Positions 31,232-64,000 of a DNA stretch of 64,000 bases are shown here, one piece after another. The DNA comes from Streptomyces sp. CB02923. Lineage in GTDB: Bacteria > Actinomycetota > Actinomycetes > Streptomycetales > Streptomycetaceae. The position numbers and the translations under genes were made by a program. The notes under the pieces are model-generated. The model had not been told where the DNA came from and made no database searches. It was given only the letters and a program-made list of their open reading frames with translations. Within the stretch, counting starts at the first letter, position 1, and the number at the start of each line of letters is the position of its first letter. The stretch spans positions 375,775 through 439,774 of the forward strand of contig NZ_LWKZ01000001.1 in NCBI RefSeq assembly GCF_001905005.1, given 5' to 3'.

Positions 31232-31274
31232 GCCGCGTTCCGCGCGTCACCGCAGCCCCTTCGAAAGGAGCGGA

Positions 31275-31973: not shown

Positions 31974-32001
31974 GATCCGACCGGACCGAAAGGCGACCCC
32001 C

Positions 32002-33833: not shown

Positions 33834-33834
33834 C

Positions 33835-38152: not shown

Positions 38153-39616
38153 CTAGCCGCGATGTGGCCAACCGCCTCGGGCAAAGCTGATTCCGCGCCA
38201 TTGCGGAATTCCGTCCCCGGGGCGCCGGGAACGTGGCACGGCGGTGATCGCACCGGCAATCTCGTCCGCCTGTACGCGTATCTCCGGAATGGCCGTACTC
38301 TCCAGGAGCTCGCCCCGGCGGAGCGCTCCGATGGTCCATATCGAAGCGGCCGTGTCCGTCCGCCCGTCGCGCAGCCGACCGTCGTCCAGGATGTCGAATC
38401 CCAGCCCGGTGGGGTGCGGCCGGGCCCGCCCCGACTCCAGCAGGTCCCGCAGGAGCGGATCGTCGACGGCGCTCGGATCGGGCTGCGACCCGGTGCAGTT
38501 CACCACGGCGCCGACCTCGACGGCCGTACCGTCCGTCAGGCTCACCCGGACGCCGTCCCGCGTCACGAGCGCGTCGGCCACCTCGCCGGCGCGCATCCGC
38601 AGCCGGCCGCGGTCCCGTGCCCGGTCCAGTGCGGCGGCGGTCGGCGGCGCCATGCGGTGCCGGTGGACTTCCCACAGCCGCAGGTGATCGGTGAGGAACC
38701 GCCTGCGGTCGGCCGTGGACAGCTGTCGCCACAGGGACGACGTGAGCGGCCGCAGACTGTCGAAACCCGGCCGCCAGTCGCCGTGCCGATGCCTGCTGCG
38801 GGAGACCTGCGCCAGCACCTCACGGCGGAGCGCGCCGAGTCCGGCACGGCCGGTGACGGCGGGCGGCGGCACCGGTGGCAGGGGCGCCGGGGCGTGCGGG
38901 TGCGGGAGGAGGCCGCTGCGGGACACCGCCGTCAGCAGCCGGCCGGGCCGCTCCAGGCTGAGGGCCGCGTCGACCATGGTCAGCCCCGTCCCGACGAGCA
39001 GCACATCGGCGTCGTGCGGTACGGAGGCGAGCGCCCCCGGTGCCCAGGGGGACAGCACGAAGCGGTCCGACGTCCGCAGCGCGCGGGGAACCCAGTCGCA
39101 TCCGGGTGCCGGGCTCCCCACGGCCAGGACGACGGCGTCCGCCCGGACGGTGCGCCCCGAATCCAGGCGGCACACCACGGACGTTCCGCGTCTCTGCGCA
39201 CCGACGGCCCGCTCGTGCACGCGGCGCAGCCGCGCGGATGTGCCGCGTACGGCGGCGTCCTCCAGGACCTCCGCCAGGTAACTGCCGTACAGGGCACGGG
39301 GAACGAAGGCGTCGGGATCGGCGTACCGGGGGTGCCGGCCGGTGAGCCAGCGGACGAAGTGGTCACGGTCTTCGGCGAACGCGCTCATCCGCCCCGCGGG
39401 CACGTTGAGCAGATGCCGGAGGTCATCCGTCCGGTACGCGGTCCCGCGGCCGCTGTCATGGGCCGGATCGATGAGCCACAGGTCCAGCCGGGTGCCACGG
39501 CGCCCGGCGTGCTGGATCAGCCGGGCCGCCACCAGGCAGCCCGCGGCCCCCGCGCCGATGACCGCGACGGCGAGGTGCGGCGCGGTCGCGTCGCCGCTCA
39601 TGCCGCCGCCGCTCAT
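38153..39616 (-). CDS. FAD/NAD(P)-binding oxidoreductase
   Basis: Predicted 487 aa; ATG overlaps the cysN stop. The N-terminal dinucleotide-binding motif is AVIGAGAAGCLVAARL, and a second nucleotide-binding stretch is DVLLVGTGLTMVDAAL. It matches the FAD-NAD(P)-binding family that includes HI0933/lysine N6-hydroxylase-like proteins and FAD-dependent oxidoreductases associated with CysN/CysD. It ends the run sulfotransferase-cysD-cysN and may act with sulfate activation or oxidise the product. A second ATG five codons later is also possible. Confidence 0.8.
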   Translation of the reverse strand: MSGGGMSGDATAPHLAVAVIGAGAAGCLVAARLIQHAGRRGTRLDLWLIDPAHDSGRGTAYRTDDLRHLLNVPAGRMSAFAEDRDHFVRWLTGRHPRYADPDAFVPRALYGSYLAEVLEDAAVRGTSARLRRVHERAVGAQRRGTSVVCRLDSGRTVRADAVVLAVGSPAPGCDWVPRALRTSDRFVLSPWAPGALASVPHDADVLLVGTGLTMVDAALSLERPGRLLTAVSRSGLLPHPHAPAPLPPVPPPAVTGRAGLGALRREVLAQVSRSRHRHGDWRPGFDSLRPLTSSLWRQLSTADRRRFLTDHLRLWEVHRHRMAPPTAAALDRARDRGRLRMRAGEVADALVTRDGVRVSLTDGTAVEVGAVVNCTGSQPDPSAVDDPLLRDLLESGRARPHPTGLGFDILDDGRLRDGRTDTAASIWTIGALRRGELLESTAIPEIRVQADEIAGAITAVPRSRRPGDGIPQWRGISFARGGWPHRG

Positions 39617-40953
39617 GCCGCCGTCCTGCCGCCGCGCGCCGGGCCCCGGGCGCTGGCCGGGAAGGCCGTTCCGGCCATTCCTGCGGTCAGCGTGGTGCCG
39701 TCGGCGGGGTCGATGAGCAGGAACGATCCGGTACGCCGGGAGTCGGCGTAGGGGTCCAGGGCGAGGGGTTCGGCGGTGCGCAGCACGATGCGGCCGATGT
39801 CGTTGGCGGCCAGTTCGCCGGGCGCCGGGTGCTGGGAGAGGTCGTCGAGGGTCAGCCGGGAGGGGATGGTTTTGACGAGGGCTTTGACGGTGCGGGTGGT
39901 GTGTTTGAGCAGGACCCGCTGGCCGGCCCTCAGGGGCTGGTCGGCGACGTGGCAGACGGTGGCCTCGATGTCGCGGGTGACGGCGGGCGGCGCGGCGGCC
40001 GGGGCGATCAGGTCGCCGCGGGAGATGTCCAGGTCGTCGGCGAGGCGGACGGTCACCGACTGCGGCGCCCAGGCCACGTCCACCGCCTGGCCCAGCACGT
40101 CCAGCGCCGCCACGGTGCTGGTCCGGCCCGACGGCAGGACGGTCACCGCGTCGCCGGTGCGCAGCACACCCGAGGCGATCTGCCCCGCGTAGCCGCGGTA
40201 GTCGGGCAGTTCGGGAGTCTGCGGGCGGATGACGTACTGCACCGGGAAGCGCGCCGGGTCCTCGGAAGGGTCGGCCACCACCGGCACGCTCTCCAGGTGC
40301 TCCAGCACGGTCGGCCCGCCGTACCAGTCCATGTTGGTGGACGGGGTCACGACGTTGTCGCCGGCCAGCGCGGAGATCGGGATGGCGGTGATCTCCGGTA
40401 CGCCCAGCGAGGCGGCGTACGTGGTGAACTCCGCGGCGATGGCCGCGAAGACCGGCTCGGCGTAGGCGGCCAGGTCCATCTTGTTGACGGCCAGGACGAC
40501 GTGGGGGACGCGCAGCAGGGCGGCGACGGCGGCGTGGCGGCGGGTCTGCTCGACGACGCCGTGGCGGGCGTCGACCAGCACCACGGCCAGCTCGGCGGTG
40601 GAGGCGCCGGTGACCATGTTGCGGGTGTACTGCACATGGCCGGGGGTGTCGGCGAGGATGAAGCGGCGCCGGGGCGTGGCGAAGTAGCGGTAGGCGACAT
40701 CGATGGTGATGCCCTGCTCCCGCTCGGCCCGCAGCCCGTCGGTCAAAAGGGCCAGGTCGGGCGCCTCCTGGCCGCGGCCCAGCGAGGCCCGCTCGACCGC
40801 TTCGAGCTGGTCGGCCAGCACCGACTTCGAATCGTGCAGCAGCCGCCCCACCAGCGTGGACTTGCCGTCGTCCACCGAGCCGGCGGTGGCGAAGCGCAGC
40901 AGCGAGGTGGCGGCCGTACCGGCCACGTCGACCGGATCGACAATCGTGCTCAT
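39613..40953 (-). CDS. cysN: Sulfate adenylyltransferase large subunit CysN
   Basis: Predicted 446 aa; start codon overlaps the cysD stop (TAATG). A GTPase of the EF-Tu type that drives ATP sulfurylase: P-loop GSVDDGKSTLVGRL, G2 region EREQGITIDVAYRYF, DTPGH, and NKMD. GTP hydrolysis powers synthesis of adenylyl sulfate by CysD. There is no fused APS kinase (CysC) domain, so PAPS for the sulfotransferase must come from a kinase elsewhere. A cysND pair beside a sulfotransferase indicates dedicated sulfate activation for tailoring. Confidence 0.95.
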   Translation of the reverse strand: MSTIVDPVDVAGTAATSLLRFATAGSVDDGKSTLVGRLLHDSKSVLADQLEAVERASLGRGQEAPDLALLTDGLRAEREQGITIDVAYRYFATPRRRFILADTPGHVQYTRNMVTGASTAELAVVLVDARHGVVEQTRRHAAVAALLRVPHVVLAVNKMDLAAYAEPVFAAIAAEFTTYAASLGVPEITAIPISALAGDNVVTPSTNMDWYGGPTVLEHLESVPVVADPSEDPARFPVQYVIRPQTPELPDYRGYAGQIASGVLRTGDAVTVLPSGRTSTVAALDVLGQAVDVAWAPQSVTVRLADDLDISRGDLIAPAAAPPAVTRDIEATVCHVADQPLRAGQRVLLKHTTRTVKALVKTIPSRLTLDDLSQHPAPGELAANDIGRIVLRTAEPLALDPYADSRRTGSFLLIDPADGTTLTAGMAGTAFPASARGPARGGRTAA

Positions 40954-41879
40954 TAGAAGTACCCCTCGCGCTTGCGGTCCTCCATGGCGGCCTCGGACAG
41001 TTTGTCGTCGGCCCGGGTGGCGCCCCGCTCGGTCAGGCGGGAGGCGGCGATCTCGGCGATGACGGCCTCGATGGTGGCCGCGTCGGAGTCGACGGCGCCG
41101 GTGCAGGACATGTCGCCGACGGTGCGGTAGCGCACCTGCCGCGTCTCGACCCGCTCGCCGTCCCTGGGGCCGCCCCAGGCGCCGGGCGCCAGCCACATGC
41201 CGCCGCGGGCGAAGACCTGGCGCTGGTGGGCGTAGTAGATGGCGGGCAGTTCGATTTTTTCGCGGGCGATGTACTGCCACACGTCCAGTTCGGTCCAGTT
41301 CGACAGGGGGAAGACGCGCACGTGTTCGCCGGGTGAGTGGCGGCCGTTGTAGAGCTGCCACAGTTCGGGGCGCTGGCGGCGCGGGTCCCAGCCGCCGAAC
41401 TCGTCACGCAGGGAGAAGACGCGTTCCTTGGCGCGGGCTTTTTCCTCGTCCCGGCGTCCGCCGCCGAAGACGGCGTCGAAGCGGTTCGCTTCGATGGCGT
41501 GCAGCAGCGGCACGGTCTGCAGCGGGTTGCGGGTGCCGTCGGGGCGCTCGCGCAGCTCGCCGCGGTCGATGAAGTCCTGGACGGAGGCGACGTGCAGGCG
41601 CAGGCCATGCCGGGCCACCGTGCGGTCGCGGTAGTCGAGGACTTCGGGGAAGTTGTGGCCGGTGTCGACGTGCAGCAGCGCGAACGGCACCGGCGCGGGG
41701 GCGAAGGCCTTCAGGGCCAGGTGCAGCATCAGGATGGAGTCCTTGCCGCCGGAGAAGAGGATCACCGGCCGCTCGAACTCCCCCGCCACCTCACGGAAGA
41801 TGTGCACCGCCTCCGACTCCAGCGCATCCAGATGACTCAGCGCATACGGGGTGCCGACGTCCCTCTCGATGACTTTCAC
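40953..41879 (-). CDS. cysD: Sulfate adenylyltransferase subunit CysD
   Basis: Predicted 308 aa. PP-loop SGGKDS (residues 43-48) binds ATP and makes adenylyl sulfate together with CysN. Family features ELDVWQYIAREKIELP and the C-terminal KREGYF are present. The gene lies 4 bp after the sulfotransferase gene and overlaps cysN, forming a sulfation operon. Confidence 0.96.
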   Translation of the reverse strand: MKVIERDVGTPYALSHLDALESEAVHIFREVAGEFERPVILFSGGKDSILMLHLALKAFAPAPVPFALLHVDTGHNFPEVLDYRDRTVARHGLRLHVASVQDFIDRGELRERPDGTRNPLQTVPLLHAIEANRFDAVFGGGRRDEEKARAKERVFSLRDEFGGWDPRRQRPELWQLYNGRHSPGEHVRVFPLSNWTELDVWQYIAREKIELPAIYYAHQRQVFARGGMWLAPGAWGGPRDGERVETRQVRYRTVGDMSCTGAVDSDAATIEAVIAEIAASRLTERGATRADDKLSEAAMEDRKREGYF

Positions 41880-41883
41880 GCCT

Positions 41884-42954
41884 TCACCGGGAAGCGGACG
41901 AGTTCACGGCGGCATCGGCACGTGGCTCACTGTGCCGGAGGGCGAGCGTGCCCGGTCGGCAGCTCTCGCGGAGTGCGGTGAGTTCCTCCGCGGGAAGGCG
42001 CAGAGCGCTGCCCCGCCTGCCGCCGTCGAGCAGCGCCTGCCCGGCGGCCAGCCAGTCGGGCAGCGGTGCGACCCCGATGAAGGCGGCCAGGCGGGTCAGT
42101 TCCCGTTCCGGGTCGTCCAGGAGCGCCTCGTAGCCGAGCGACGTACGGTGGTCCGCCGGTACCTGTTCCAGGTGCCGCACGCCGTCCACGACACTGCGCG
42201 ACCACAGGCGCCCGAGCCTGGCGGGTGAGATCTCGTGCTCGACCACCCAGCGGGGGTCGAATCGGCGGGTCATGAGTTCCCTCAGATCGGGCGGCAACGC
42301 GTCGACCTGGCTTCCGGTCAGCTCGGCGACCGACGCGGCGCCGGTCAGGCCGAGTATCTCCGCCGTCAGTGCGATCATCCGGAAGCCGGGGTGGCGGCTC
42401 ATGGAAACGGCGCAGTCGGGGCCGTCGCGGAACAGGTGAACGAACTTCGCCCCGGGAAACGCCGCGCGCAACTGCGGGACCCAGTGCAGTGAATAACCGG
42501 AACGTTCGACGGCCACCGTCCTGTCCCGCCATTCGCAGAGCGTGTCGAAGAACGCTTCGAAATGCTGTCCGGCCGGCCTGCGTGGCCATGCGCATATTTC
42601 GTGGGCAAGTGCGTCGAAGAGGCCGTCGGGGTCGTCCGTCAGATGTGGCAGCACCATCATGGACAGTGCGGGAATTCCGGTGCCCTCGACCGTGAATCGT
42701 CCCGGGCGCCGGAGGTAGAGGAACTCGGCGATCTGTGCGCCGTTGCGGACGAGTGCGTCGTGCCCGGGGCTGGGGCGGGCCAGAAGTTCCCAGAACTCCT
42801 CCCCCGTGATGTCTTTCCGCGGTACCGCTTCGGCTCGCCCCAATGAGGTGAACAGTTCGTTGATGCTGAGGACGTCCGGATGGAGATTGATGATCCGGGA
42901 CAGCGCGGTCGAACCGCTCCGGCCCGTTCCGACGATGAAGGTCAATGGCCGCAT
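41884..42954 (-). CDS. PAPS-dependent sulfotransferase
   Basis: Predicted 356 aa. The 5'-phosphosulfate-binding loop is FIVGTGRSGSTALSRII (residues 6-22), and the 3'-phosphate-binding region is likely FVHLFRDGPDCAVSMSRHP. It transfers sulfate from PAPS to a hydroxyl or amine. ATG preceded by GGAGCAAGC. With cysD 4 bp downstream, and the SARP and lanthipeptide genes upstream on the same strand, a role in tailoring a local metabolite is likely. The lanthipeptide core's Tyr and the terpenoid product are both candidate acceptors. Confidence 0.88.
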   Translation of the reverse strand: MRPLTFIVGTGRSGSTALSRIINLHPDVLSINELFTSLGRAEAVPRKDITGEEFWELLARPSPGHDALVRNGAQIAEFLYLRRPGRFTVEGTGIPALSMMVLPHLTDDPDGLFDALAHEICAWPRRPAGQHFEAFFDTLCEWRDRTVAVERSGYSLHWVPQLRAAFPGAKFVHLFRDGPDCAVSMSRHPGFRMIALTAEILGLTGAASVAELTGSQVDALPPDLRELMTRRFDPRWVVEHEISPARLGRLWSRSVVDGVRHLEQVPADHRTSLGYEALLDDPERELTRLAAFIGVAPLPDWLAAGQALLDGGRRGSALRLPAEELTALRESCRPGTLALRHSEPRADAAVNSSASR

Positions 42955-43088: not shown

Positions 43089-43883
43089 TCAGGCGCCGCC
43101 GCCCGCCGACAGGCACGGAGAGGTCGCGGCGGCGGCGAGGTTCAGTGTCAGCGCGGGGTCGGACCTGAGAATGGCCTGCTCCAGCTCCCGCAGCGGGGCG
43201 GTCGGTTCGATGCCGAGTTCGTCGACCATCCGCTCCCGCGTCGCCCTGAAGGCGGCCAGCGCCTCGGCCGTGCGCCCGCAGCGGTACAGCGCCGTCATGA
43301 GCTGATACGTCAGCCGTTCCCGCGCGTAATGCCCGCGGGCCATCACCATGATCTCGTCCACGATCTTCTCGTGGTCGCCCAGGTCGAGACCGAGGGCGAA
43401 GCGCTCCTCCACCGCGGTGAGGTAGATGTCCTCCAGCCTGGGCTGCTCGAACACGCGCAACGGGCTGTCGACGAGGTCGGTGAGCGGTGTGCCGCGCCAC
43501 AGCACCAGTGCCTCGTCCAGGGTGTCCGCTGCCTCGCGCAGCGCTTCCCGGCTCAGTTTCCGGGAGAGTAACAACATCCTGCGGAATCTCTCCACGTCTA
43601 TCTCGTAGAGTTCGGCGGCCAGGCGATATCCGCCGGACTCGGTGTGAATGCGCCCGGCCGGAAGTATTTTCCTGAGACGCTTTATGTGATTACGCAGAGT
43701 AACCCGTGCGGTAGCGGGCGTCTTGACGCCCCACAGCTGATCGGCGAGCTCCTCCGTGGGGACGACGCGGCCGGCCCTGAGTGCCAGTGCGGCCAAAGTC
43801 GTACGCAGCATCGGAGCCTGTATCGGAAGGATCCCCCCGTCGTCGCCCAGAACCTCCACGGTTCCCAAGAGCCGTATCTCCAC
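43089..43883 (-). CDS. SARP-family transcriptional activator
   Basis: Predicted 264 aa from a GTG with GGAGG upstream. The OmpR-like winged helix (VEIRLLGTVEVLGDDG to GGYRLAAE) is followed by the bacterial transcriptional activation domain (RFRRMLLLSRKLSREALREA to AFRATRERMVDELGIEP), the AfsR/DnrI/RedD layout. It should bind direct repeats upstream of biosynthetic genes and recruit RNA polymerase. Codon 105 is TTA, making translation dependent on bldA. Located between lanM and the sulfotransferase on the same strand, it is the likely pathway-specific activator. Confidence 0.9.
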   Translation of the reverse strand: MEIRLLGTVEVLGDDGGILPIQAPMLRTTLAALALRAGRVVPTEELADQLWGVKTPATARVTLRNHIKRLRKILPAGRIHTESGGYRLAAELYEIDVERFRRMLLLSRKLSREALREAADTLDEALVLWRGTPLTDLVDSPLRVFEQPRLEDIYLTAVEERFALGLDLGDHEKIVDEIMVMARGHYARERLTYQLMTALYRCGRTAEALAAFRATRERMVDELGIEPTAPLRELEQAILRSDPALTLNLAAAATSPCLSAGGGA

Positions 43884-44113: not shown

Positions 44114-47100
44114 TCAGGTCCGGTGCCCGGACGTGGTCTCCTGTGTCAGCCGGTCCGGCGACTCCAGCCACAGCACACCGGGGACCTGGCGGGGAGCGGC
44201 CAGCCGCATCAGCCCCAGGCACACCCCGGCCGTGCCGATCATCAGGCCCGGTACGTCGATCTCCCCGGCCGGCACACCGGAGATCGCCCCCGCCGACTTC
44301 ACCTGGGCCAGTACGCCGTGCGCGATCTCCTCCCTGGCCCGTCGCCACGGCTCCGGCGACGCGGCATCCGCGAGGACATCGCCCGCCAGGGTGAACAGCT
44401 CCAGGTTCCCGAGGTCCCCGTGGCACAGGCTGTGGTTGCGGCCGAACTCACCGGCGTAGGTCTCCGCCAGCGCCGTACCGGCTTCCGCCCGGAGTACGGC
44501 GTCCTCCCGGGCGCGCAGCATCAGGAGCCGGGACATGCCGACCCCCACGCCTCCGTTGCACCACCAGTTGGACGCGGTCAGCGACGCCTTCGTGCCGACG
44601 TCCAGGTCCTGCCGGAGGTCCCGCCACCGGCGCTGCTCCGGAAGGTACAGCCGCCGGTCGAACTCCGCCGCCCGGTCGGCCAGTTCGGCCAGTTCGGCGG
44701 ATCCGAGGAAGGCGGACAGCTCGGACAGTGCCCAGGCGATGCCCGCGGAGCCGTGCGAGAAGCCGCCCAGCGGGTCGGACTTCTCGGCCGGGCGCCACCC
44801 CGCGGTCCCCTCGACGTCCACCTGGGTCTCCACCAGGCGCTGGGCGCACAGCGCGGCGATGTCGCGCAACTGCCGGTGCCCGTAGCGGCGGTGCAGGTTG
44901 ACGGCGACGACGGCGCAGCCGGCCAGCCCTCCGATGACGTCCGGCGACTGCTCCTCCTCGGCTGCCCGGCGCAGTACGGGCACGAAGCTCTCGATGTGCT
45001 CCGCGAAGTCCGGCTCCCCGGTGACGTGCGCCATGTGGTCGAGCGCGTACAGCAGGCCCGCGATGCCGTCGAAGGCACCGGCGGTGTCGGCGATCCCGTT
45101 GTCCCGGATGTCCCTGAGGTGGTCCAGCATCGGTACCGTGCAGCGGCGCGCCAGGTCCAGGTAGCGGTCGTCCTGGAAGAGGGAAGCCGCGTAGCCGAAC
45201 GTCACGGCGAAGCCGGCGAGTCCGTCGTACAGCGTGGTGCCGACCGGCCGGTAGGTGAGCGAGTCCTCACGGCCGCCGTCCAGGCTCACGCCGAGCCAGC
45301 TGCAGTCCTCCGTGCCGAGCAGGGCACGGTCGGCCAGTTGGGTGGCCAGGCCCCGGGCCAGGGATGCCGCGTCCTGGGTGCCGATTTCCGGCGCGTCCGG
45401 CGCGGGACGCCACTGCGGACGCCGCTGTCCTTTGAGGAGGGTGCTCAGCGTCTCGCGGATGATGCGTTCCTGGCCCTGCCGGTGGGCCTCCCCGAAGCCG
45501 TCCAGCTTCGTGCGGACACCGGCGAGGCTCGGCTCCTCGAAGAACGCGCCCAGGGGTCCGTAGCCCGGCGCGTGGATCTCCGTGGCGGCCGGCCGGGTGC
45601 GGAAGCACGGCACGTCACCGCTGATCAGCTGGCGCTTCTCGCTGTCCACGAGAGGGATCAGGTCCGGGCGGGTCTCGGCGGTCGCCCACAGCTTGTCCAG
45701 CAGGCGCTCCCGGTCCAGCGCGTTGCGCAGGTAGTCGGGGTGGTAGCTCTCGGTCAGGAAGAGGCTGTAGCGGCGGGTGAGCCGGGCGAGGTGCCGGATC
45801 TCGATGTCCGCCGAGTCGTCGAGCAGGTGGCGGAACCGGTCGCGGTGCCGCTCGATGATCTCGTACGTGTCGTGGAACCCGGCGACGACCCGCTCCCGGT
45901 GGTCTTCGGGCCGGACCTCCAGCCCTTCGCCGAACGGGCGGTTCTTGGCTCCGCTCATCTGCGCGAGGCGGGCCTCCAGGCGCATGGTGTCCTGGTAGGA
46001 GTCCACGAGGGTGGGGACCGGGCGGGTGGTGCGCGTGATCGCTCCGCCGCCTATGGCGCTGAGGTCCACGCCCTCCACCCGTCGGTCGCCGAAGACGCGC
46101 GCCGGGAGGACTCCCGTGGCGAGTACGCCCTGGAACAGGGTGTTCATCGCCTTGTGGTGCGCGGTGACCACCTCGCCCTCCGGCTGGGCGGTCTGCTGGA
46201 AGATGGTCTCCAGGTCGATGGGCACGGGAAACGGCCCGGCGGCGATGATGTTCTCCAGGTGGAAGTCGATGGCTCCCACGGTCATCAGGATGGCCAGCGT
46301 GCTGCCCGTCCGCCAGTAGAAGTCCTCGATGTCCCGGCGGGTGGCGCAGGGGGTGTGGTCGATGTACTCGCACCAGCCGTAGTCGTCCCGCTCCAGGACC
46401 CGCATGCCCGTGTTCTCCAGGGGCGGGCCGTACGCGTTGACGGTGTCCACCAGGGCGCGGTAGGCCGCTTCCGTCGCCACGGACCGGGGTTTGTACACCA
46501 GTCGGGTGCCGTCGTCGAACGTGAGGAGGGCGACGGAGCGGCCGCGGTGGTGGCTGTCGCCGAGATCCAGGCCGAGGCCGGCCAGGCTGTCGGCCGAGGT
46601 GGTGGTCAGACCCGCGTCCCGCAGCAGCCGTTCGTCCGCCACCAGGCGCCGCAGCAGTTCGGCGATGTGCGCGGTCCACTGGTTCCCGGCCTCGATCATG
46701 GAGCGTCCCAGTACGGGGTATTCCGTGAAGAGCCGCTGCCGGTAGGAGGTGGCGGGCAGGATCTGCCCGGCGTACCAGTCGTAGCGCTCGTGCGGGGTGC
46801 CGCCTTCGAGGACGCCTTCGGTCCGGGCGACGTTCAGTTCGAGGACGAGAGTGCGGGCGCTCACCCGCAGCAGGCGGTTGGCCAGCGCGCCCAGCAGGTC
46901 CGCGCGCAGCCGCCCGGCCAGCTTGGTCAGGACGTCCGGGCCGTCCGCCAGCTCGGCCAGCAACCGCTCCTCGAAGTACCCGAGGAAGCTGCCGAGCAGG
47001 CCCTCGAACGGGAGCCGGGGGAACACCTCGGCGAACATCTTCGTCGTGAACCGCGGAGTGTCCTCCGCCTCCGCGGGGCGCGCGAGCACCTCGGACAGCT

Positions 47101-47356
47101 CCGCGGTCCAGGACATGGCCTCCGGCAGCACGGCGAAGTCCGTTGCCGTGATCGCCACGGCGAACTCTTCCGCCGTCGTTCCGGAACGGGCCAAGCGCTG
47201 CCGGAAGGCACTTTCGGACATGAACGCCGATTCGCGCCACCGCACCACGGCGGCTTTCGCCTCGTCCGATGGTGTGGTGCCGCTCGGCGGAAGGCGCTCG
47301 TAGCTGTAGGCCGCGTTGTCCGTACCGGTGAGGTGTACCGTGCGCTTGACTGTCAT
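44114..47356 (-). CDS. lanM: Class II lanthipeptide synthetase LanM
   Basis: Predicted 1080 aa. The N-terminal two thirds is the kinase-like dehydratase domain that phosphorylates and eliminates Ser/Thr in the precursor (GRSVALLTFDDGTRLVYKPR, then HLENIIAAG). The C-terminal LanC-like cyclase has its zinc ligands: Cys in NWWCNGGVG (near 930) and Cys-His in SLCHGDLGN (near 975), plus the GGFSHGSAGIAWAL motif. Cyclisation makes lanthionine and methyllanthionine rings. It lies 189 bp downstream of the precursor gene with a hairpin between them. A single LanM next to one precursor suggests a one-peptide lantibiotic. Confidence 0.96.
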   Translation of the reverse strand: MTVKRTVHLTGTDNAAYSYERLPPSGTTPSDEAKAAVVRWRESAFMSESAFRQRLARSGTTAEEFAVAITATDFAVLPEAMSWTAELSEVLARPAEAEDTPRFTTKMFAEVFPRLPFEGLLGSFLGYFEERLLAELADGPDVLTKLAGRLRADLLGALANRLLRVSARTLVLELNVARTEGVLEGGTPHERYDWYAGQILPATSYRQRLFTEYPVLGRSMIEAGNQWTAHIAELLRRLVADERLLRDAGLTTTSADSLAGLGLDLGDSHHRGRSVALLTFDDGTRLVYKPRSVATEAAYRALVDTVNAYGPPLENTGMRVLERDDYGWCEYIDHTPCATRRDIEDFYWRTGSTLAILMTVGAIDFHLENIIAAGPFPVPIDLETIFQQTAQPEGEVVTAHHKAMNTLFQGVLATGVLPARVFGDRRVEGVDLSAIGGGAITRTTRPVPTLVDSYQDTMRLEARLAQMSGAKNRPFGEGLEVRPEDHRERVVAGFHDTYEIIERHRDRFRHLLDDSADIEIRHLARLTRRYSLFLTESYHPDYLRNALDRERLLDKLWATAETRPDLIPLVDSEKRQLISGDVPCFRTRPAATEIHAPGYGPLGAFFEEPSLAGVRTKLDGFGEAHRQGQERIIRETLSTLLKGQRRPQWRPAPDAPEIGTQDAASLARGLATQLADRALLGTEDCSWLGVSLDGGREDSLTYRPVGTTLYDGLAGFAVTFGYAASLFQDDRYLDLARRCTVPMLDHLRDIRDNGIADTAGAFDGIAGLLYALDHMAHVTGEPDFAEHIESFVPVLRRAAEEEQSPDVIGGLAGCAVVAVNLHRRYGHRQLRDIAALCAQRLVETQVDVEGTAGWRPAEKSDPLGGFSHGSAGIAWALSELSAFLGSAELAELADRAAEFDRRLYLPEQRRWRDLRQDLDVGTKASLTASNWWCNGGVGVGMSRLLMLRAREDAVLRAEAGTALAETYAGEFGRNHSLCHGDLGNLELFTLAGDVLADAASPEPWRRAREEIAHGVLAQVKSAGAISGVPAGEIDVPGLMIGTAGVCLGLMRLAAPRQVPGVLWLESPDRLTQETTSGHRT

Positions 47357-47545: not shown

Positions 47546-47710
47546 TCAGCAGAAGCACTCGGTGGTGATGGTGCAGAAGTAGCCACTGCTGATCATGTGG
47601 GCGGACTGGTCCTCACGCAGATCCGCCAGGGAAAGCTCGCCGAAGTTGGCGCCCGCCGGGTTGGTGACGTCCTGGGCACCGGTCTTCCAGGCAGCTGCTT
47701 CCGTGCTCAT
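47546..47710 (-). CDS. lanA: Lanthipeptide precursor, actagardine-like
   Basis: Predicted 54 aa, ATG with GGAGGTAACC upstream. The leader, with NPAGANFGELSLADLRED, strongly resembles actagardine-group leaders, which share an NPAG/HPAG...FGEL...DLRED pattern in my recollection. The core is SSGYFCTITTECFC (residues 41-54). Actagardine is SSGWVCTLTIECGTVICAC, so rings 1 (Ser to Cys46), 2 (Thr47 to Cys52) and 3 (Thr49 to Cys54) map onto this core, while the last ring and the segment GTVICAC are reduced to FC. CTITTEC matches the mersacidin-type lipid II-binding ring CTxTxEC. Leader cleavage is probably between Ile40 and Ser41. Confidence 0.92.
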   Translation of the reverse strand: MSTEAAAWKTGAQDVTNPAGANFGELSLADLREDQSAHMISSGYFCTITTECFC

Positions 47711-47898: not shown

Positions 47899-50421
47899 CT
47901 ACTCGGTCTTGATGGCCACCAATGAATTGATCTTTGTGGCGCTTCGGGCCGGCCACAGCGCGGCCACCACTCCGACCAGCAGGGCCAGGAGGAAGAAGAG
48001 CCCGATCCGGTCCCACGGCAGGGAGAACCGGTACGCGTCCATGCGCTCCGCGATCAATGCGCCGCCGAGCCCGCTCAGCAGCACGCCGAGCACGATGCCG
48101 AGCACGGCGCCGAACAGTGAGATGGCCAGTGATTCGAGCCGTACCATGCGCCGGATGTCCCGGCTCTCCATGCCGACGGCGCCGAGCATGCCGATCTCCT
48201 GGGTCCGCTCGAACACCGACAGGGCAAGGGTGTTGATGACGCCCAGCACGGCGACGATCACCGCCATTCCGAGCAGTGCGTAGAGCACGTTCAGCAGGAG
48301 GGTGGCCGTCTGGGAGATGGAATCCGTCATCTCCTGCTTGCTGCGGATCTTTACCGCCGGATTGTCTCCCAGTGCCTTGGCCAGAACGGCCTTTGTCCTC
48401 TCGGAGACGCCCGGTGCGGTTTTCACCATGAGCAGCGAGTCGTCGATGTGGAGCTGATGCCGGGAGAGCGTCGCCGTATCGATGAGAATTCCGCTGATCA
48501 GGTTGTTTCCGGTGAAGATGCCGGACACCTTCAGGGTGCCTTTCGTGCCGTCTTCGTACGTCAGGGAGAACGAGTCCCCGGCTTTCCAGCCGAACAGGCC
48601 GGCGGTTTTCTTGTCCACCACCGCGTGGTCGCCGCCGAGTTTCCGGAACGATCCCGTGGAGAATTCCAGATTGGTCAGCCCGTCCATCGCCCGGCCGTGC
48701 ACACCGCCGATGGCCCGGCGCTGTCCCTCGATCCGCGCGGGAGAGGTGCGCAGCGGGCTGGTGGCGGTGACGTCGGGCAGTTGGGCCAGGGTGCGTTCCA
48801 CCGAAGGGGCCAGCGGTTTCTTGGTGACCATGGAGACGACGTAGTCGGCTCTGATGCCGTCCGCGGCCATGGCCTTCAGACCGTTCTGCATGCCGGTGCC
48901 GATCACCGTCAGGCTCGTGATCACGGTCAGGCCGATCATCAGCGCGGAGGCGGTGGCGGCGGTACGGCGCGGGTTGCGGACCGCGTTCCGCTGGGCGATC
49001 TTCCCGGGCAGGCCGAAGGCGCGCAGCCCCGGGCCCAGCAGCCGGATGAACGGCCGGGACAGCGCCGGGGTCAGGACGATGACGCCGACCAGCAGGAGCA
49101 GCCCGCCCAGGCCCAGCAGCCCCATCGGTACCGGTTTCCTGGCGTCGGCGAACAGCATCAACGCCGTGCCCAGTACGGCCAGGATTCCGCCGACGGCGTT
49201 CCGCAGCAGCATCGAGCGGGGCGCGGCCGGTGCGTGGACGCTGTGCATCGCGGCCACCGGCGGGACGTTGGCGGCCCGTCGGCTCGGCAGCCAGGCCGCC
49301 AGCATCGTCACTCCCACGCCGATGCCCAGCGCCACCAGCACGACGGCCGGGGAGACGACGAGCGGCCCGTCCGGGAGGAGCGCTCCGGTGGCGCGCATCA
49401 GCGGGAGCAGCAGGGCACCGATGCCGATGCCGGCCGCCAGTCCCGCCGCGGCGGCGACCGCGCCGACGGCGCATGCCTCGGCCAGCACCATGCCCGTCAC
49501 CTGGCCGCTGCTGGCGCCCACCGCCCGCAGCAGGGCGATCTCCTTGGTGCGCTGGGCGACGAGCATGGTGAAGGTGTTGGCGATGATGAAGACGCCGACG
49601 AACAGGGAGATCGCGGCGAAGGCCAGCAGTCCGGTACGGATGTTCTCCATGCTGGACCGGATCGAGCGGGCCTGTTCGCGGGCGAGTTCGGCGCCGGAGG
49701 CCGCTTCGGTCCCGGTCGGCAGGATCTTGGTGACCTCCGCCGTCAGCGCGGCTTCGGGCGTTCCGGGCCGGGCGGCGAGGTGGATCTCGTTGAACCGGCC
49801 GGGGGCGGTCAGCAGTTTCTGTGCCGTGGCCGTGTCGAACAGGACGAGTGTGCCGCCCGCCGCCACGTTGCCGTCGTCGGTGTCGAAGATCCCGACGACC
49901 TTGCGGTTCAGCACCGGCCCGTCGACCGACATGCGCACGCTGTCCCCGACGGTGAACCGCGCGCCCTCCGCCGTTCTGGCGTCGACCGCGACCTCGCCCT
50001 GCGTGTGGGGCGGGCGTCCTTCCTTCATCGGGTAGCGGGCGTCCTTGCCGTCCGCGCCGGGAGCGTAGTTGCCGCCCTGGGTGGAGAAGCCGCTGCCGAT
50101 CAGCTGTCCCTGCTTGTCGGCCACGGCGACCGTGCCGGAGACGATGCCGACGGCCGATTCGACTCCGGGCAGGGCGGCGGTCCGGGCGAGGAGGCGCTGG
50201 TCGAGGCGGCGGACAGCGGCCGTGCCGGTGTCCGTACCGGGCCGGATCGCCACGGTGACGCCGTCGAGGCTCTTCTCGGAGCCCTTCTCGTACGCCTCCG
50301 AGATGGTCGAGGCGAAGACCAGCGTGCCGGAGACGAAGGCCACTCCGAGCATGACCGCGAGGCCGGTCATCAACAGGCGTGCCCGGTGCGCGAGGACGTT
50401 GCGTAATGCTGCTCGTAACAT
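47899..50421 (-). CDS. FtsX-type ABC transporter permease (MacB-like)
   Basis: Predicted 840 aa with the duplicated FtsX layout: a first helix (RARLLMTGLAVMLGVAFVSG), a large extracellular domain, three helices near residues 265-420, then a second extracellular domain and three helices at the end. Such permeases with a matching ATPase often export antibiotics or peptides or give self-immunity. The start is ATG TTA CGA GCA GCA TTA, with TTA at codons 2 and 6, so translation should stall without bldA tRNA. No peptidase domain is present. It lies upstream of lanA on the same strand. Confidence 0.9.
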   Translation of the reverse strand: MLRAALRNVLAHRARLLMTGLAVMLGVAFVSGTLVFASTISEAYEKGSEKSLDGVTVAIRPGTDTGTAAVRRLDQRLLARTAALPGVESAVGIVSGTVAVADKQGQLIGSGFSTQGGNYAPGADGKDARYPMKEGRPPHTQGEVAVDARTAEGARFTVGDSVRMSVDGPVLNRKVVGIFDTDDGNVAAGGTLVLFDTATAQKLLTAPGRFNEIHLAARPGTPEAALTAEVTKILPTGTEAASGAELAREQARSIRSSMENIRTGLLAFAAISLFVGVFIIANTFTMLVAQRTKEIALLRAVGASSGQVTGMVLAEACAVGAVAAAAGLAAGIGIGALLLPLMRATGALLPDGPLVVSPAVVLVALGIGVGVTMLAAWLPSRRAANVPPVAAMHSVHAPAAPRSMLLRNAVGGILAVLGTALMLFADARKPVPMGLLGLGGLLLLVGVIVLTPALSRPFIRLLGPGLRAFGLPGKIAQRNAVRNPRRTAATASALMIGLTVITSLTVIGTGMQNGLKAMAADGIRADYVVSMVTKKPLAPSVERTLAQLPDVTATSPLRTSPARIEGQRRAIGGVHGRAMDGLTNLEFSTGSFRKLGGDHAVVDKKTAGLFGWKAGDSFSLTYEDGTKGTLKVSGIFTGNNLISGILIDTATLSRHQLHIDDSLLMVKTAPGVSERTKAVLAKALGDNPAVKIRSKQEMTDSISQTATLLLNVLYALLGMAVIVAVLGVINTLALSVFERTQEIGMLGAVGMESRDIRRMVRLESLAISLFGAVLGIVLGVLLSGLGGALIAERMDAYRFSLPWDRIGLFFLLALLVGVVAALWPARSATKINSLVAIKTE

Positions 50422-50486: not shown

Positions 50487-51293
50487 TCACCGGGCGCCGC
50501 CCGGGAGTCCCGGGCCCGCGGGCAGCGGGCTCTCCGAGAAGGCCAGCATCCGGTTCAGTACGGCGTGGGCCGTCGGCTCGCGCAGTTCGTCGACGATCCG
50601 CCCGTCGGCCAGGAAGACCACCCGGTCCGCGAACGAGGCGGCCCCGGGGTCGTGCGTGACCATGACGACGGTCTGCCCGAACTCCCGGACGGAGTTGCGC
50701 AGGAAGCCCAGGATCTCGGCACCGGCGCGGGAGTCGAGGTTGCCGGTCGGCTCGTCCGCGAAGACGATCTCCGGCCGGCCGGCCAGGGCCCTGGCCACCG
50801 CCACCCGCTGCTGCTGCCCGCCGGAGAGCTGCGAGGGGCGGTGGGTGAGCCGCCCGGCCAGGCCGACCATGCCGACGACGAGGTCCAGCCACGCCTGATC
50901 GGGGCGGCGCCCCGCGATGTCGAGCGGCAGGGTGATGTTCTCCAGCGCGGTCAGCGTCGGGAGCAGGTTGAACGCCTGGAAGACGAACCCGATCCGGTCG
51001 CGGCGTAATCTCGTCAGGTCCCGGGCGCTCAGCGTGGTCAGTTCCACGTCACCGATGCGGGACGAGCCCCCCGAGGCGGCGTCGAGCCCCGCCATGCAGT
51101 GCATGAGCGTCGACTTCCCCGAGCCGGACGGGCCCATGATCGCGGTGAACTCGCCCGCGGGGAAGGCCACCGACACGGCGTCCAGCGCGACCACCCTGCT
51201 CTCACCGTCCCCGTAGATCTTGGTGAGCTTCTCGGCCCGCGCTGCGTCGGCGCCCGGGATCCTGGCCTGCGTCGCGTGCTGGCGTGTGGTCAT
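50487..51293 (-). CDS. ABC transporter ATP-binding protein (MacB/LolD type)
   Basis: Predicted 268 aa. Walker A GPSGSGKSTL, signature LSGGQQQRVAVARAL, Walker B EIVFADEPTGNLD. The N-terminal 25 residues are an extra tail. TTA is codon 96 (in DLTRLRRDRIGF). The start is the ATG at 51293 with AGGAG nine bases upstream. Pairs with the FtsX-type permease 65 bp downstream. There is no LanT-type C39 peptidase-transporter in the window, so this pair is the most likely exporter or immunity system for the lanthipeptide. Confidence 0.92.
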   Translation of the reverse strand: MTTRQHATQARIPGADAARAEKLTKIYGDGESRVVALDAVSVAFPAGEFTAIMGPSGSGKSTLMHCMAGLDAASGGSSRIGDVELTTLSARDLTRLRRDRIGFVFQAFNLLPTLTALENITLPLDIAGRRPDQAWLDLVVGMVGLAGRLTHRPSQLSGGQQQRVAVARALAGRPEIVFADEPTGNLDSRAGAEILGFLRNSVREFGQTVVMVTHDPGAASFADRVVFLADGRIVDELREPTAHAVLNRMLAFSESPLPAGPGLPGGAR

Positions 51294-51493
51294 AGAGGAG
51301 GACTCCTGTTCGACTTGCGTCGTACGGCGAAACACCCCATGCTCCCGTCACACCGAGTTCCCGGGCATCAGCCCGGGGCGGTCCGTCCCCTCCCTCTTCC
51401 GGCGTACGGCCGGGTCACGGGATACGTCGCTGGTATGACGTGAGGCACGTGAACACAGCATGGACCAGAGGGACTTGCCACCCCGCAAACACG

Positions 51494-51576: not shown

Positions 51577-52356
51577 TCACCGCCCGTAACGGCGCTCGCG
51601 TTCGCAGTAGGAACGCAGGGCCCGCAGGAAGTCGAGCTCACGGAAGTCGGGCCAGTAGCACTCGCAGAAGTGCACTTCCGCGTAGGCCGACTGCCAGAGC
51701 AGGAAACCGGAGAGGCGCTGCTCGCCCGAAGTACGGATGATCAGGTCCGTCTCCGACCTGACCTTCGAATAGAGGTGCTTCGAGATGTGGTCCACGTCGA
51801 AGGTGTCGATGAGGCCCTCGATGTCGCCGCCCTGGGTGACGTGCTCACTCATCGCGGAACGGACGGCGTCGACGATCTCGCGCCGCCCGCCGTACCCCAC
51901 GGCCACGTCGACGCGGGTGCCGTCGCGGCGGTCCGACGTCCGTGACGCCGCCTGCTTCAGCCGGGTCGCCGACTCCTGCGGCAGGAGGTCCAGCGACCCT
52001 ATGACCTCCACCGGCCAGGGGTTGTCCGGGGCCGCCAGCCGCTCGACGACGTCCTCGATGATGCCGATGAGCGGCACCAGCTCGGCCTGGGGGCGGTGCA
52101 GGTTGTCGTCCGAGAGCATGAAGAGGGTGACGTGCTCGATGCCCGCGGAACCGCACCAGTTCAGGAAGTCGACCACTTTCGCGCCGCCGACCTTGTAGCC
52201 CTCGCTGGGGTCGTCGTGCCCGGCCATCCGCGCCCAGCGGCGGTTTCCGTCGAGCATGATGCCGATGTGCCGGGGGCGCGGCCGGCCTGCGAGCTTCGCG
52301 GAGAGCCTTTTCACGTACAGCGCATTCGCGGCGGCCCTTAGCCTCGCTCGCATCAT
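51577..52356 (-). CDS. uppS: Undecaprenyl diphosphate synthase-like cis-prenyltransferase
   Basis: Predicted 259 aa; ATG-ATG start preceded by no strong ribosome-binding site. All catalytic features are intact: IMLDGNRRWARMAG, LFMLSDDNLHR, VAVGYGGRREIVDAV, DLIIRTSGEQRLSGFLLWQ and AEVHFCECYWPDF. It should make long cis-prenyl diphosphate for lipid II or teichoic acid carriers. Streptomycetes often have more than one such gene. Next to a predicted lipid II-binding lantibiotic, a second copy could raise carrier supply for self-protection; alternatively it is an ordinary housekeeping gene. Confidence 0.9.
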   Translation of the reverse strand: MMRARLRAAANALYVKRLSAKLAGRPRPRHIGIMLDGNRRWARMAGHDDPSEGYKVGGAKVVDFLNWCGSAGIEHVTLFMLSDDNLHRPQAELVPLIGIIEDVVERLAAPDNPWPVEVIGSLDLLPQESATRLKQAASRTSDRRDGTRVDVAVGYGGRREIVDAVRSAMSEHVTQGGDIEGLIDTFDVDHISKHLYSKVRSETDLIIRTSGEQRLSGFLLWQSAYAEVHFCECYWPDFRELDFLRALRSYCERERRYGR

Positions 52357-52615
52357 CGGTCCCTTCAGCTCCCGCAGCGGTGGTAATCGTCCGGGCGGCA
52401 TCCGGGCTCCCGCCCACGCCATGCCCCTTCCGCGGCCGCGCGGAGCGCCTTTTCCGCCGCAGGCGCGTAACCATACCAAGCGTCACCCGCCCGTCCTGCC
52501 ACAGGAGTTACGCATCAGCGTGAAACGATTTTCCGCTCACCTTTCCTGCGCTCACCGGACGTTGTGACGGTGTGACACCGTGCCGCGGCGGGGGTGCGCG
52601 GACCCGTACGGCAAG

Positions 52616-53287
52616 ATGTCCGCCGTGACCATTCGCTTGTTGATTGCCGACGACCAGGAGATGGTCCGCCGCGGAATGCGGCGCATAGTGGAGAGCCAGC
52701 CGGACATGGAAGTGGTCGGCGAGGCTGCGGACGGGGTTGACGCGGTGGAAATGGCGCGCGCCCTGGAACCGGATGTCGCGCTGGTGGACATCCGGATGCC
52801 GCGGATGGACGGCCTGGAGGTGACCCGGCTGCTCGCCGGCTCCCCGGCGGGGCATCCGACCAAGGTGGTCGTGGTGACCACCTTCGACCTGGACGCATAT
52901 GTGTATCCCGCACTGCGGTACGGGGCTTCGGGGTTCCTGCTGAAGCGGTCGGGGCCGACGCTGCTGGTGGAGGCGGTACGGGCGGCGGTGTCGGGGGACA
53001 GTCTGATCAGCCCGGAGATCACTGTGCGGCTGCTCCGGCACGTCCGGGGCGCCGACTCGCGCCGCAAGAAGGGGAATTCCCCGCTGACCGGGCGGGAGAT
53101 CGAGGTGGCCGCGCTGGTCGCCGAGGGCAAGACCAATGCCGACATCGCGGATGAGCTGTTCATCTCGGCCGGCACGGTCAAGACGCACGTGGCGAGCATT
53201 CAGCGGAAGTTCGCGGTGCGCAATCGCGTCGGAGTGGCCGTGCGCGCCTGGGAGCTGGGGTACGCGGACGGCCGCGGTCCGCGCTGA
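52616..53287 (+). CDS. NarL-family response regulator
   Basis: Predicted 223 aa. Receiver domain with the phosphoacceptor Asp in ALVDIRMPRMDG, conserved VVVVTTFDLDAYV and Lys in FLLKRSG; C-terminal LuxR-type helix-turn-helix LTGREIEVAALVAEGKTNAD continuing to GTVKTHV. The ATG at 52616 is chosen; a GTG three codons later is equally possible. Transcribed divergently from the uppS-like gene with about 260 bp between. It should be activated by the histidine kinase gene downstream. Confidence 0.93.
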   Translation: MSAVTIRLLIADDQEMVRRGMRRIVESQPDMEVVGEAADGVDAVEMARALEPDVALVDIRMPRMDGLEVTRLLAGSPAGHPTKVVVVTTFDLDAYVYPALRYGASGFLLKRSGPTLLVEAVRAAVSGDSLISPEITVRLLRHVRGADSRRKKGNSPLTGREIEVAALVAEGKTNADIADELFISAGTVKTHVASIQRKFAVRNRVGVAVRAWELGYADGRGPR

Positions 53288-53379
53288 CGCGCGCCGGATA
53301 TCCGCCGTACGGCAGATGCGGGAAACCGGCAACGGTGCTGCCCGTGCCGCCGGATGCGGCATCTGCGTAGCCTCGGCGC

Positions 53380-54549
53380 ATGGGCGACGATGTGAAACCG
53401 GCGGGCGGGAAGCGCCGTGCTGGGTGCGTGGTGCTGGTGGCGATGATTCTTCTGCCCGCGCTGGGGGCCTCGCCCGGTGCCTTTCCCCTGGCGCTCTGCG
53501 CGGCCGTGGCAGCGGCGGCGGCGATGCCGGGCCTGCGGCTGCGGCGTGTCCCGCTCGTGCGGGGCGCGGTTTTCACCGCGAGTGCGTCCCTCGTGCTCGA
53601 CTTCGCCTATTCCGGCGATCCGAAGCCGATCGGCTTCTGGCTCCCCTTCGAGGGCGTCGCCCTGCTGGTCCTCCTCTACCGGGTGACGCGACGGGAGCCC
53701 GTTCCCCGGGCCGCCTGGGCCGGGGGCCTGGTGGGTGCCGCGACGGTCTGCCTGCTGCTGCGGATCACGCTGCACATGCCGCAGCAGGGGTGGCGCGAAT
53801 CGGTCTTCGTGGTGTTCCTGGGATTCTTCCCCGCCGCGTGTGTGACCGGCGTCGGGCTCTACCTCCGGTCGCTGGACGCCCGGCGGGCCCGTGCGGTCAC
53901 CCGTGCGCTGCGCGACCAGCGCCTGGAGGTCGCCCGTGACCTGCACGACTTCGTCGCCCACGAGGTGACCGGCATCGTGCTGGAGGCGCAGGCGGCCCAG
54001 CTGGACCGGGACGCTCCGCAGCAGACCCGCGAGCTGTTCGAACGCGTCGAAGCGGCGGGCCTGCGGGCGCTGGACTCCATGGACCAGACGGTGCGGGCGC
54101 TGCGCCAGGCGGACGGCGGGGCGTGGGAGGAGGCGCCCGCCACCCGGGTGTACGGCCTGGCCGACCTCGCCGGGCTGCTGGACAGGTTCTCCTCCATGAC
54201 GCGTGCGCAGACGCGGCTGTCCCAGGAAGAGGGCCTGGCGGGTGCGCTGTCGCGGGAGGCCGGGGACGCCGCGTACCGCGTGGTCCTGGAGTCGCTGACC
54301 AACGTCCGCCGGCATGCCGCGCAGGCCACCCGGGTCGTGGTGGCGGCCCGCCGTACCGCCGGGGGTTCGGTCGAGGTGACGGTCACCGACGACGGCGGCG
54401 GAACGCCGGGAGGCACCCGGCACGGAGGCGGCACCGGCCTGGCCGGGCTGTCCGAGCGGGTCGACGCGCTGGGCGGAACGCTGCGGGCGGGCCCGCACGG
54501 CGGGGGCTGGCGGGTCGGCTGCGTACTCCCCGCACCCGCGGTCCGCTGA
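53380..54549 (+). CDS. Sensor histidine kinase, HisKA_3 type
   Basis: Predicted 389 aa. Five or six hydrophobic segments in residues 12-165 form the membrane sensor. The phosphorylation site is DLHDFVAHEVTGIVLEAQAA (His near residue 189), followed by the HATPase domain (YRVVLESLTNVRRHAAQAT with N-box, VTDDGGGTPGG G1 box, GTGLAGLSERV G2 box). It pairs with the regulator upstream. The short membrane-embedded sensor with little extracellular sequence resembles kinases that sense envelope-active antibiotics, often controlling an ABC transporter encoded next to them, as here. Confidence 0.92.
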   Translation: MGDDVKPAGGKRRAGCVVLVAMILLPALGASPGAFPLALCAAVAAAAAMPGLRLRRVPLVRGAVFTASASLVLDFAYSGDPKPIGFWLPFEGVALLVLLYRVTRREPVPRAAWAGGLVGAATVCLLLRITLHMPQQGWRESVFVVFLGFFPAACVTGVGLYLRSLDARRARAVTRALRDQRLEVARDLHDFVAHEVTGIVLEAQAAQLDRDAPQQTRELFERVEAAGLRALDSMDQTVRALRQADGGAWEEAPATRVYGLADLAGLLDRFSSMTRAQTRLSQEEGLAGALSREAGDAAYRVVLESLTNVRRHAAQATRVVVAARRTAGGSVEVTVTDDGGGTPGGTRHGGGTGLAGLSERVDALGGTLRAGPHGGGWRVGCVLPAPAVR

Positions 54550-54650
54550 GCCGTCGGCCGCTCCGCGATATCTGCCGTTCGGGAGATGTGCCCGCTGCCC
54601 CGGGTTGGAAAGCTCGGCGGCAGTTGCGGAACGTGGACCTGGAGGGGCAG

Positions 54651-54821
54651 ATGCTCAACGGTGTGATGGCGGAACGGGGCGGTACGGGTGCGGTGGTGGT
54701 GCCGTCCGCCGAGGCGGCGCCGGGCCCGGCAGGCCGTCCGGCCGACTGCCCGGTCGAGGTGCCCCAGGGCGTCACCGTGCCGCGGACCGGCCGGACGTCC
54801 GGTCTGCGGGGCGAGGGCTGA
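54651..54821 (+). CDS. Small open frame ahead of ABC exporter, unknown
   Basis: Predicted 56 aa, ATG preceded by GGAGGGGCAG. It ends 2 bp before the ABC ATPase start. No hydrophobic segment or motif is evident; the sequence is rich in Gly, Ala, Val and Pro, with a single Cys. It may be a real small protein, a leader that couples translation of the ATPase, or chance. Good ribosome-binding site and tight spacing argue for translation; composition argues against a defined fold. Confidence 0.4.
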   Translation: MLNGVMAERGGTGAVVVPSAEAAPGPAGRPADCPVEVPQGVTVPRTGRTSGLRGEG

Positions 54822-54823
54822 CC

Positions 54824-57947: not shown

Positions 57948-64000
<6,053 letters not shown>

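Follow-up and report, generated by a model that had tools for sequence, protein, structure and literature searches.

Sulfotyrosine-containing lanthipeptides are known from the ssl and ssc clusters, where, according to the relevant excerpts of PMC12135136, they are made by SslST and SscST and where a partial or complete dedicated PAPS cassette is carried. The primary report of sulfonated lanthipeptides is Wang et al. 2024 (Acta Pharm Sin B 14:2773), as cited in an excerpt of PMC13417212. The sulfotransferase AdpST of Streptomyces davaonensis likewise has its own PAPS cassette next to it, which enhances sulfation, although its substrate is a polyketide resorcinol and not a peptide (PMC12135136, in the excerpts on this enzyme).

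The window analyzed here, a stretch of 64,000 nucleotides from Streptomyces sp. CB02923, resembles the ssl and ssc clusters, as excerpted, in combining LanM and a sulfotransferase in one cluster with a PAPS cassette, which is partial in the window (cysD and cysN) and complete in a counterpart in Streptomyces cinnamoneus. Compared by description and not by sequence, the window cluster probably belongs to the same family as ssl and ssc, and its peptide is possibly identical to one of theirs. The published sulfonated lanthipeptides reportedly depend on a LanM and are said to carry the sulfate on Tyr5 in ring A; when Ile40 is counted as residue 1, the core tyrosine of the window is also residue 5. 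A claim that sulfated lanthipeptides are a new kind of compound is ruled out by the published ssl and ssc clusters, as far as the excerpts describe them. We consider it likely that the window contains a class II lanthipeptide cluster in which LanM converts a short precursor to a three-ring peptide and the cluster sulfotransferase is then predicted to sulfate the hydroxyl of the single core tyrosine.

A short precursor with a three-cysteine core

The precursor gene lanA is located on the minus strand (47710..47546) and encodes 54 amino acids. Its translation, taken from the reverse complement of 47546-47710 and backed by homologues, reads MSTEAAAWKTGAQDVTNPAGANFGELSLADLREDQSAHMISSGYFCTITTECFC* and ends in the candidate core SSGYFCTITTECFC. 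A good ribosome-binding site (ACGGAGGTAACC) lies directly 5′ of the ATG, and a genome search indicated that lanA is single-copy, with no second similar LanA. The first-pass annotation had proposed a lanthipeptide precursor at this position, and the gene is indeed a real class II precursor gene, upstream of a full LanM; its location on the minus strand had not been indicated there. The core comprises 14 residues, or 15 if it starts at Ile40, and contains three cysteines (Cys46, Cys52, and Cys54) and five Ser/Thr residues (Ser41, Ser42, Thr47, Thr49, and Thr50). Because there are three cysteines only, a maximum of three thioether rings can form, as had been suggested, and not the four rings of the actagardine/mersacidin group. 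Residues 47-52 (TITTEC) match TxTxEC, the lipid II motif of mersacidin (PMC7268733, in excerpt); the lipid II-type pattern recognized earlier is thus present, and in a genuine LanM cluster.

Similar to the precursors of actagardine, michiganin, and NAI-802, lanA follows the PAGxGFGEL...LRED leader and the SSGWVC[TS]LT.[ED]C core start of 11 full-length homologues (P0131-P0141), but it has Tyr where all 11 have Trp. Eight of the 12 leading core residues are identical to the actagardine-type core SSGWVCTLTIEC (P0141). The actagardine type has a GTxxCxC tail and four core cysteines, whereas lanA has three and no such tail. Its last nine residues, CTITTECFC, align end to end with CTLTSECIC, which we take to be the end of mersacidin, and the core looks, from this alignment, like an actagardine ring A followed by a mersacidin-type tail. 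Since the tail matches that end, such a description is apter than the "truncated actagardine" implied previously; that the core is short, three-cysteine, and actagardine-related still stands. Compared with mersacidin, the core presumably lacks the glycine-rich ring B and differs in ring A. It also differs in that mersacidin proper uses a LanD flavoprotein for AviMeCys formation: no LanD-type PF02441 gene was identified near the cluster, the matches being on other contigs (window genome G000, and G580) or at least 0.9 Mb away (S. cinnamoneus G196 and Streptomyces violaceusniger G438), and a LanD/AviMeCys C-terminus was ruled out on this basis. With no such gene nearby, the C-terminal carboxylate would be retained.

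The eight residues shared with P0141 could also be read as what is left of an actagardine gene that decayed or underwent a frameshift, lost its GTxICAC tail, and yields no product. However, seven further precursors stop at this terminal Cys as well, with one extra Arg in P0005, and LanM is intact with its motifs present. Since these homologues end alike, we reject the decayed-gene reading, including the hidden frameshift that the first-pass annotation had allowed for, as scarcely conceivable. All family matches of lanA (DUF6229, Lantibiotic_a, and plantaricin C family) are below cut-off. PF14867 (Lantibiotic alpha) was matched weakly, at 16.4 bits against a cut-off of 27, which could suggest a two-component lantibiotic with this peptide as the lipid II-binding alpha partner and the beta peptide encoded elsewhere; we regard this as very improbable, as the genome holds no second similar LanA, although a divergent beta precursor would escape that search.

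Distribution of the short-core family

A search of approximately 5.8 billion proteins with the single sequence returned four matches, including the window lanA itself, and a profile search returned 20 at E<=1. The short plan SSGxxCTxTTECxC occurs in seven of these 20 (P0002, P0003, P0004, P0005, P0128, P0129, and P0130), and the 11 full-length actagardine-like homologues mentioned above, with Trp at position 4 in each, are also among them. P0142 (SSGYVCTLTLECNC) and P0143 (SSGFICTVTAECNC), from the same 20 matches, have other 14-residue cores that end in CNC and follow different leaders. Together with an eighth member from Streptomyces sporangiiformans (P0006), the short plan is common to eight precursors, that is, the window lanA and seven others. 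Its recurrence in seven homologues indicates that the short precursor is more than chance. Core position 4 is Tyr in five of the eight (P0002, P0003, P0005, P0128, and P0130), Trp in two (P0004 and P0129), and Ala in one (P0006).

Short-core lanA genes are rare across the sampled genomes. In three partly overlapping samples, confirmed members were the window's genome plus one other at the family level (394 genomes; seven further weak matches unconfirmed), two others at the genus level (392 genomes; three weak matches unconfirmed), and no other at the class level (394 genomes; one weak match unconfirmed). No relatives were found in a plasmid collection at E<=0.01. Motif inspection of five weak-match loci (L006, L008, L009, L010, and L012) gave nothing, and no readable FGEL leader was found in L062. 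One candidate on a WWE3 contig (L004) was dropped because its match spans 19 residues only. The pattern SSG..CT.T.EC.C(R)-stop matched nine times in 453,293 bases of the window and the loci, always in LanA genes; these represent four distinct genes repeated in overlapping loci, and the count is a weak control because many loci were selected through LanA or a neighbor gene. A variant precursor occurs in Streptomyces sp. 7-21 (L003:10001-10168), where an actagardine-like sequence (NSEGWLCTITMETGTLICAC) with the lipid II-ring Cys replaced by Thr adjoins genes for LanM and a MacB-type permease.

Organization of the gene cluster

In the direction of lanA, the genes are ordered as MacB-type ATPase, permease, lanA, lanM, SARP, sulfotransferase, cysD, cysN, and FAD oxidoreductase, all on the minus strand. 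The ABC ATPase (50487..51335; MacB/LolD-like, below the cut-offs of these families) is the presumed partner of a MacB/FtsX-type permease and probable exporter (47899..50376), whose start is not fixed, the frame being open further upstream, and whose NCBIfam matches are below cut-offs. Identities are 81 and 74% for the ATPase and 63 and 61% for the permease in the S. cinnamoneus and S. violaceusniger (G438) loci, respectively. The lanM gene (44114..47356) starts with an ATG at 47356, 189 bases beyond the lanA stop, and encodes a synthetase of 1080 amino acids (TIGR03897, 788.7 bits against a cut-off of 304) with DUF4135 and LANC_like domains and WCNGG and CHG motifs; dehydratase and LanC-like domains in one LanM place the cluster in class II. 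A SARP-type regulator gene follows (43089..43877, start codon not fixed; BTAD and Trans_reg_C), with counterparts in the other three short-core loci.

Downstream of lanA/lanM is a tightly packed run of four genes, of which the sulfotransferase and PAPS genes were overlooked in the first-pass annotation, so that its account of the locus was incomplete. The sulfotransferase gene (41884..42954, 356 amino acids; PF13469, 75.1 bits against 27) is separated by 4 nt from the start of cysD (40953..41879; sulfate adenylyltransferase small subunit, TIGR02039, 454.6 bits against 396.6), whose stop overlaps the start of cysN (39613..40953; large subunit, TIGR02034, 537 bits against 336.1) in TAATG. The cysN stop in turn overlaps, in ATGA, the start of a FAD/NAD(P)-binding oxidoreductase gene (38153..39616; PF13454, 148.9 bits). 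The oxidoreductase could be another tailoring enzyme; tblastn found no counterpart of it in the three remaining short-core loci, those of S. cinnamoneus, S. violaceusniger, and S. sporangiiformans. No cysC match was identified in the 64-kb window.

Several flanking genes were also inspected. An additional undecaprenyl diphosphate synthase-like gene (51577-52479), located upstream of the ABC genes, could provide self-protection against a lipid II binder, but it is matched in none of the three remaining short-core loci. A conserved immunity function for the two-component system and ABC genes at 52580-57369 is unsupported by the S. cinnamoneus locus (G196): within 40 kb around it, no counterparts of the regulator, kinase, or ABC permease were found, only generic ABC ATPase matches. 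The S. sporangiiformans locus (L002) has matches to the regulator (42%) and the kinase (31%). Genes for NUDIX, polyprenyl synthetase, and cis-prenyltransferase proteins at 30605-36133, among them a second cis-prenyltransferase-like frame (35072-36133) recognized by eye, may belong to a separate isoprenoid cluster, and a large frame at 57948-63896, nonribosomal peptide synthetase-like by eye from its translation, is perhaps part of another biosynthetic locus.

In S. cinnamoneus the order is MacB pair, lanA, lanM, cysC, cysD, cysN, ABC-importer genes (NMT1-like binding protein, ATPase, and permease), SARP, and sulfotransferase; this cluster thus contains a sulfotransferase and cysC-D-N in an order different from that of the window. 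The S. violaceusniger locus consists of MacB pair, lanA, lanM (open over 1066 codons), and SARP, and no sulfotransferase or cys gene is present in the 19 kb read. In S. sporangiiformans a permease end (54-residue match), lanA, lanM, a methyltransferase gene, sulfotransferase fragments, and SARP were identified. The methyltransferase gene of this Ala-core locus (L002:13616-14440), which lies between lanM and the sulfotransferase fragments, possibly encodes a replacement tailoring step.

The sulfotransferase and its relatives

The window sulfotransferase contains a TGRSGST motif, which we take to be the PAPS-site motif. Its predicted structure (pLDDT 88.5) resembles sulfotransferases including TPSTs; in Foldseek comparisons of this model, the top two hits were polyketide-pathway sulfotransferases, and TPSTs ranked 3 to 12 as loose matches, with query TM-scores of 0.38-0.47. 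When solved structures were searched by sequence, the hits were weak only: the best tyrosylprotein sulfotransferase gave E 0.087, and a polyketide synthase domain scored 0.061. The enzyme family is common in Streptomyces, with a match in 60 of 392 genomes at E<=1e-20, and a lanthipeptide-only family was therefore ruled out. Among 30 sulfotransferase loci read, one is the window's own and the other 29 are not lanthipeptide loci (1.5 kb on each side); within these flanks no lanM, SARP, or cysD counterpart was found, and two gave generic ABC/GTPase matches. Since the family is common and these 29 relatives lie in loci without lanM, the substrate cannot be told from family membership by itself.

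The window and S. cinnamoneus sulfotransferases were sisters in two trees (support 100/98 and 95/93), but this sisterhood is less sure than the support suggests because the tree program flagged long branches, for both enzymes in the 100/98 tree and for the S. cinnamoneus enzyme in the 95/93 tree. P0116 and P0119 are also sisters, with 69% identity. For a single origin of all four cluster-type sulfotransferases, the support was 48/0 (46% of bootstrap trees), which speaks neither for it nor against it. The tree giving the 95/93 and 48/0 values contained 37 rows, namely every fourth of the 120 listed among 511 matches plus chosen sequences.

Source of the cluster cysD and cysN genes

Both the window's genome (G000) and S. 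cinnamoneus (G196) carry a second cysD elsewhere, beside a cysC match and a cysH (TIGR00434, 191.8 and 193.9 bits against a cut-off of 165.1; NF002537 also over its cut-off). No cysH-like match was found beside the cluster cysDN copies of the window or the S. cinnamoneus locus. The cluster cysDN genes share 97.1% (G000) and 99.3% (G196) DNA identity with the other copy in their own genome and approximately 80% with each other. In the window, the copied stretch (~39619-41863) comprises just cysD and cysN. These identities suggest either that each cluster captured host genes independently or that gene conversion keeps the copies alike.

Core tyrosine and presence of the sulfotransferase

A Tyr core together with an intact sulfotransferase was read directly in two loci, the window and S. 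cinnamoneus. In two further cases the linkage was deduced from the same strain name and equal-sized contigs: P0128 with P0116 (411411 bases) and P0130 with P0119 (24523 bases), where P0116 and P0119 come from the best 120 of 511 matches to the window sulfotransferase. The former linkage is fixed to 411 kb only, and is supported by the S. sporangiiformans fragments, which resemble P0116 most (71-93% in three fragments, each 14 to 45 residues long, and 59% in a C-terminal fragment of 29 residues). P0003 and P0004 are absent among those best 120, which is uninformative, and both are outside the tally.

Across six loci, Tyr accompanies an intact enzyme in four of four and Trp or Ala accompanies none or fragments in two of two: the Trp-core S. 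violaceusniger locus has no nearby sulfotransferase and the Ala-core S. sporangiiformans locus keeps fragments only. Two sulfotransferase homologues occur elsewhere in the S. violaceusniger genome, so that absence from the cluster does not mean absence from the cell. Random pairing would give perfect agreement with a chance of 1/15 for the six loci, or 1/6 for the four read directly, and the lineages are related; with a chance of 1/15, the association is suggestive but not proof. On this pattern, a sulfotransferase is predicted to be missing from the Trp-core locus of Streptomyces sp. P1-3 and to adjoin lanA in the Tyr-core loci of NPDC017890 and NPDC050619.

This pattern bears on whether the sulfotransferase acts on the peptide at all. 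The sulfotransferase, cysDN, and oxidoreductase genes could instead form a separate adjoining operon with another substrate, leaving an unsulfated three-ring mini-actagardine. The SARP gene between lanM and the sulfotransferase, the occurrence of most sulfotransferase relatives away from such loci, and the Trp and Ala members that do without an intact enzyme are consistent with such an arrangement. However, the same gene set recurs in rearranged form in S. cinnamoneus, a sulfotransferase remnant lies within the S. sporangiiformans lan locus, and enzyme presence tracks Tyr in all six loci with information, which makes a separate operon unlikely.

Proposed biosynthesis and implications

For the preferred sulfated product, LanM would dehydrate up to five Ser/Thr residues. 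Following the actagardine and mersacidin models, ring A would connect Ser41 or Ser42 to Cys46 and ring B Thr47 to Cys52; ring C may connect Thr49 to Cys54 in the manner of the C-terminal ring of mersacidin, with Thr50 remaining as Dhb. CysD and CysN of the cluster would supply APS, from which an APS kinase of the housekeeping operon may form PAPS, and the sulfotransferase would use PAPS on core Tyr4. The MacB-type transporter would export the product, and the TxTxEC ring may bind lipid II and block peptidoglycan synthesis. As predicted from the genes, the product is likely a Tyr-sulfated three-ring lipid II binder. The mass expected earlier, for 14 residues less four or five waters, is probably too low by 79.957 Da, given the predicted sulfate. 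Calculated neutral monoisotopic masses after loss of four or five waters are 1488.551 or 1470.541 for 14 residues (1568.508 or 1550.497 when sulfated) and 1601.635 or 1583.625 for the 15 residues that start with Ile40 (1681.592 or 1663.582 when sulfated).

As far as our searches show, the new elements here are the Tyr/Trp/Ala switch that goes with sulfotransferase presence or decay, the derivation of the cys genes from the host, and a tail resembling that of mersacidin. We tentatively propose, as an idea with somewhat less than an even chance of being right, that tyrosine sulfation is a switchable module in a family of minimal three-ring lipid II antibiotics: Tyr would go together with a sulfotransferase and PAPS genes freshly captured from the host sulfate-assimilation operon, the enzyme would be absent or decay upon a change to Trp or Ala, and the sulfate may be under selection for its effect on potency, solubility, or self-protection.

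If active, a three-ring peptide of 14 or 15 residues would show how little of the mersacidin/actagardine scaffold is needed for lipid II binding. The family offers a natural comparison set on nearly one backbone, namely Tyr with a sulfotransferase, Trp without one, and Ala with a broken enzyme, so that the purpose of sulfating a lantibiotic can be tested directly. Capture of host cysDN in two genomes would illustrate cleanly how a gene cluster can recruit the supply of a precursor.
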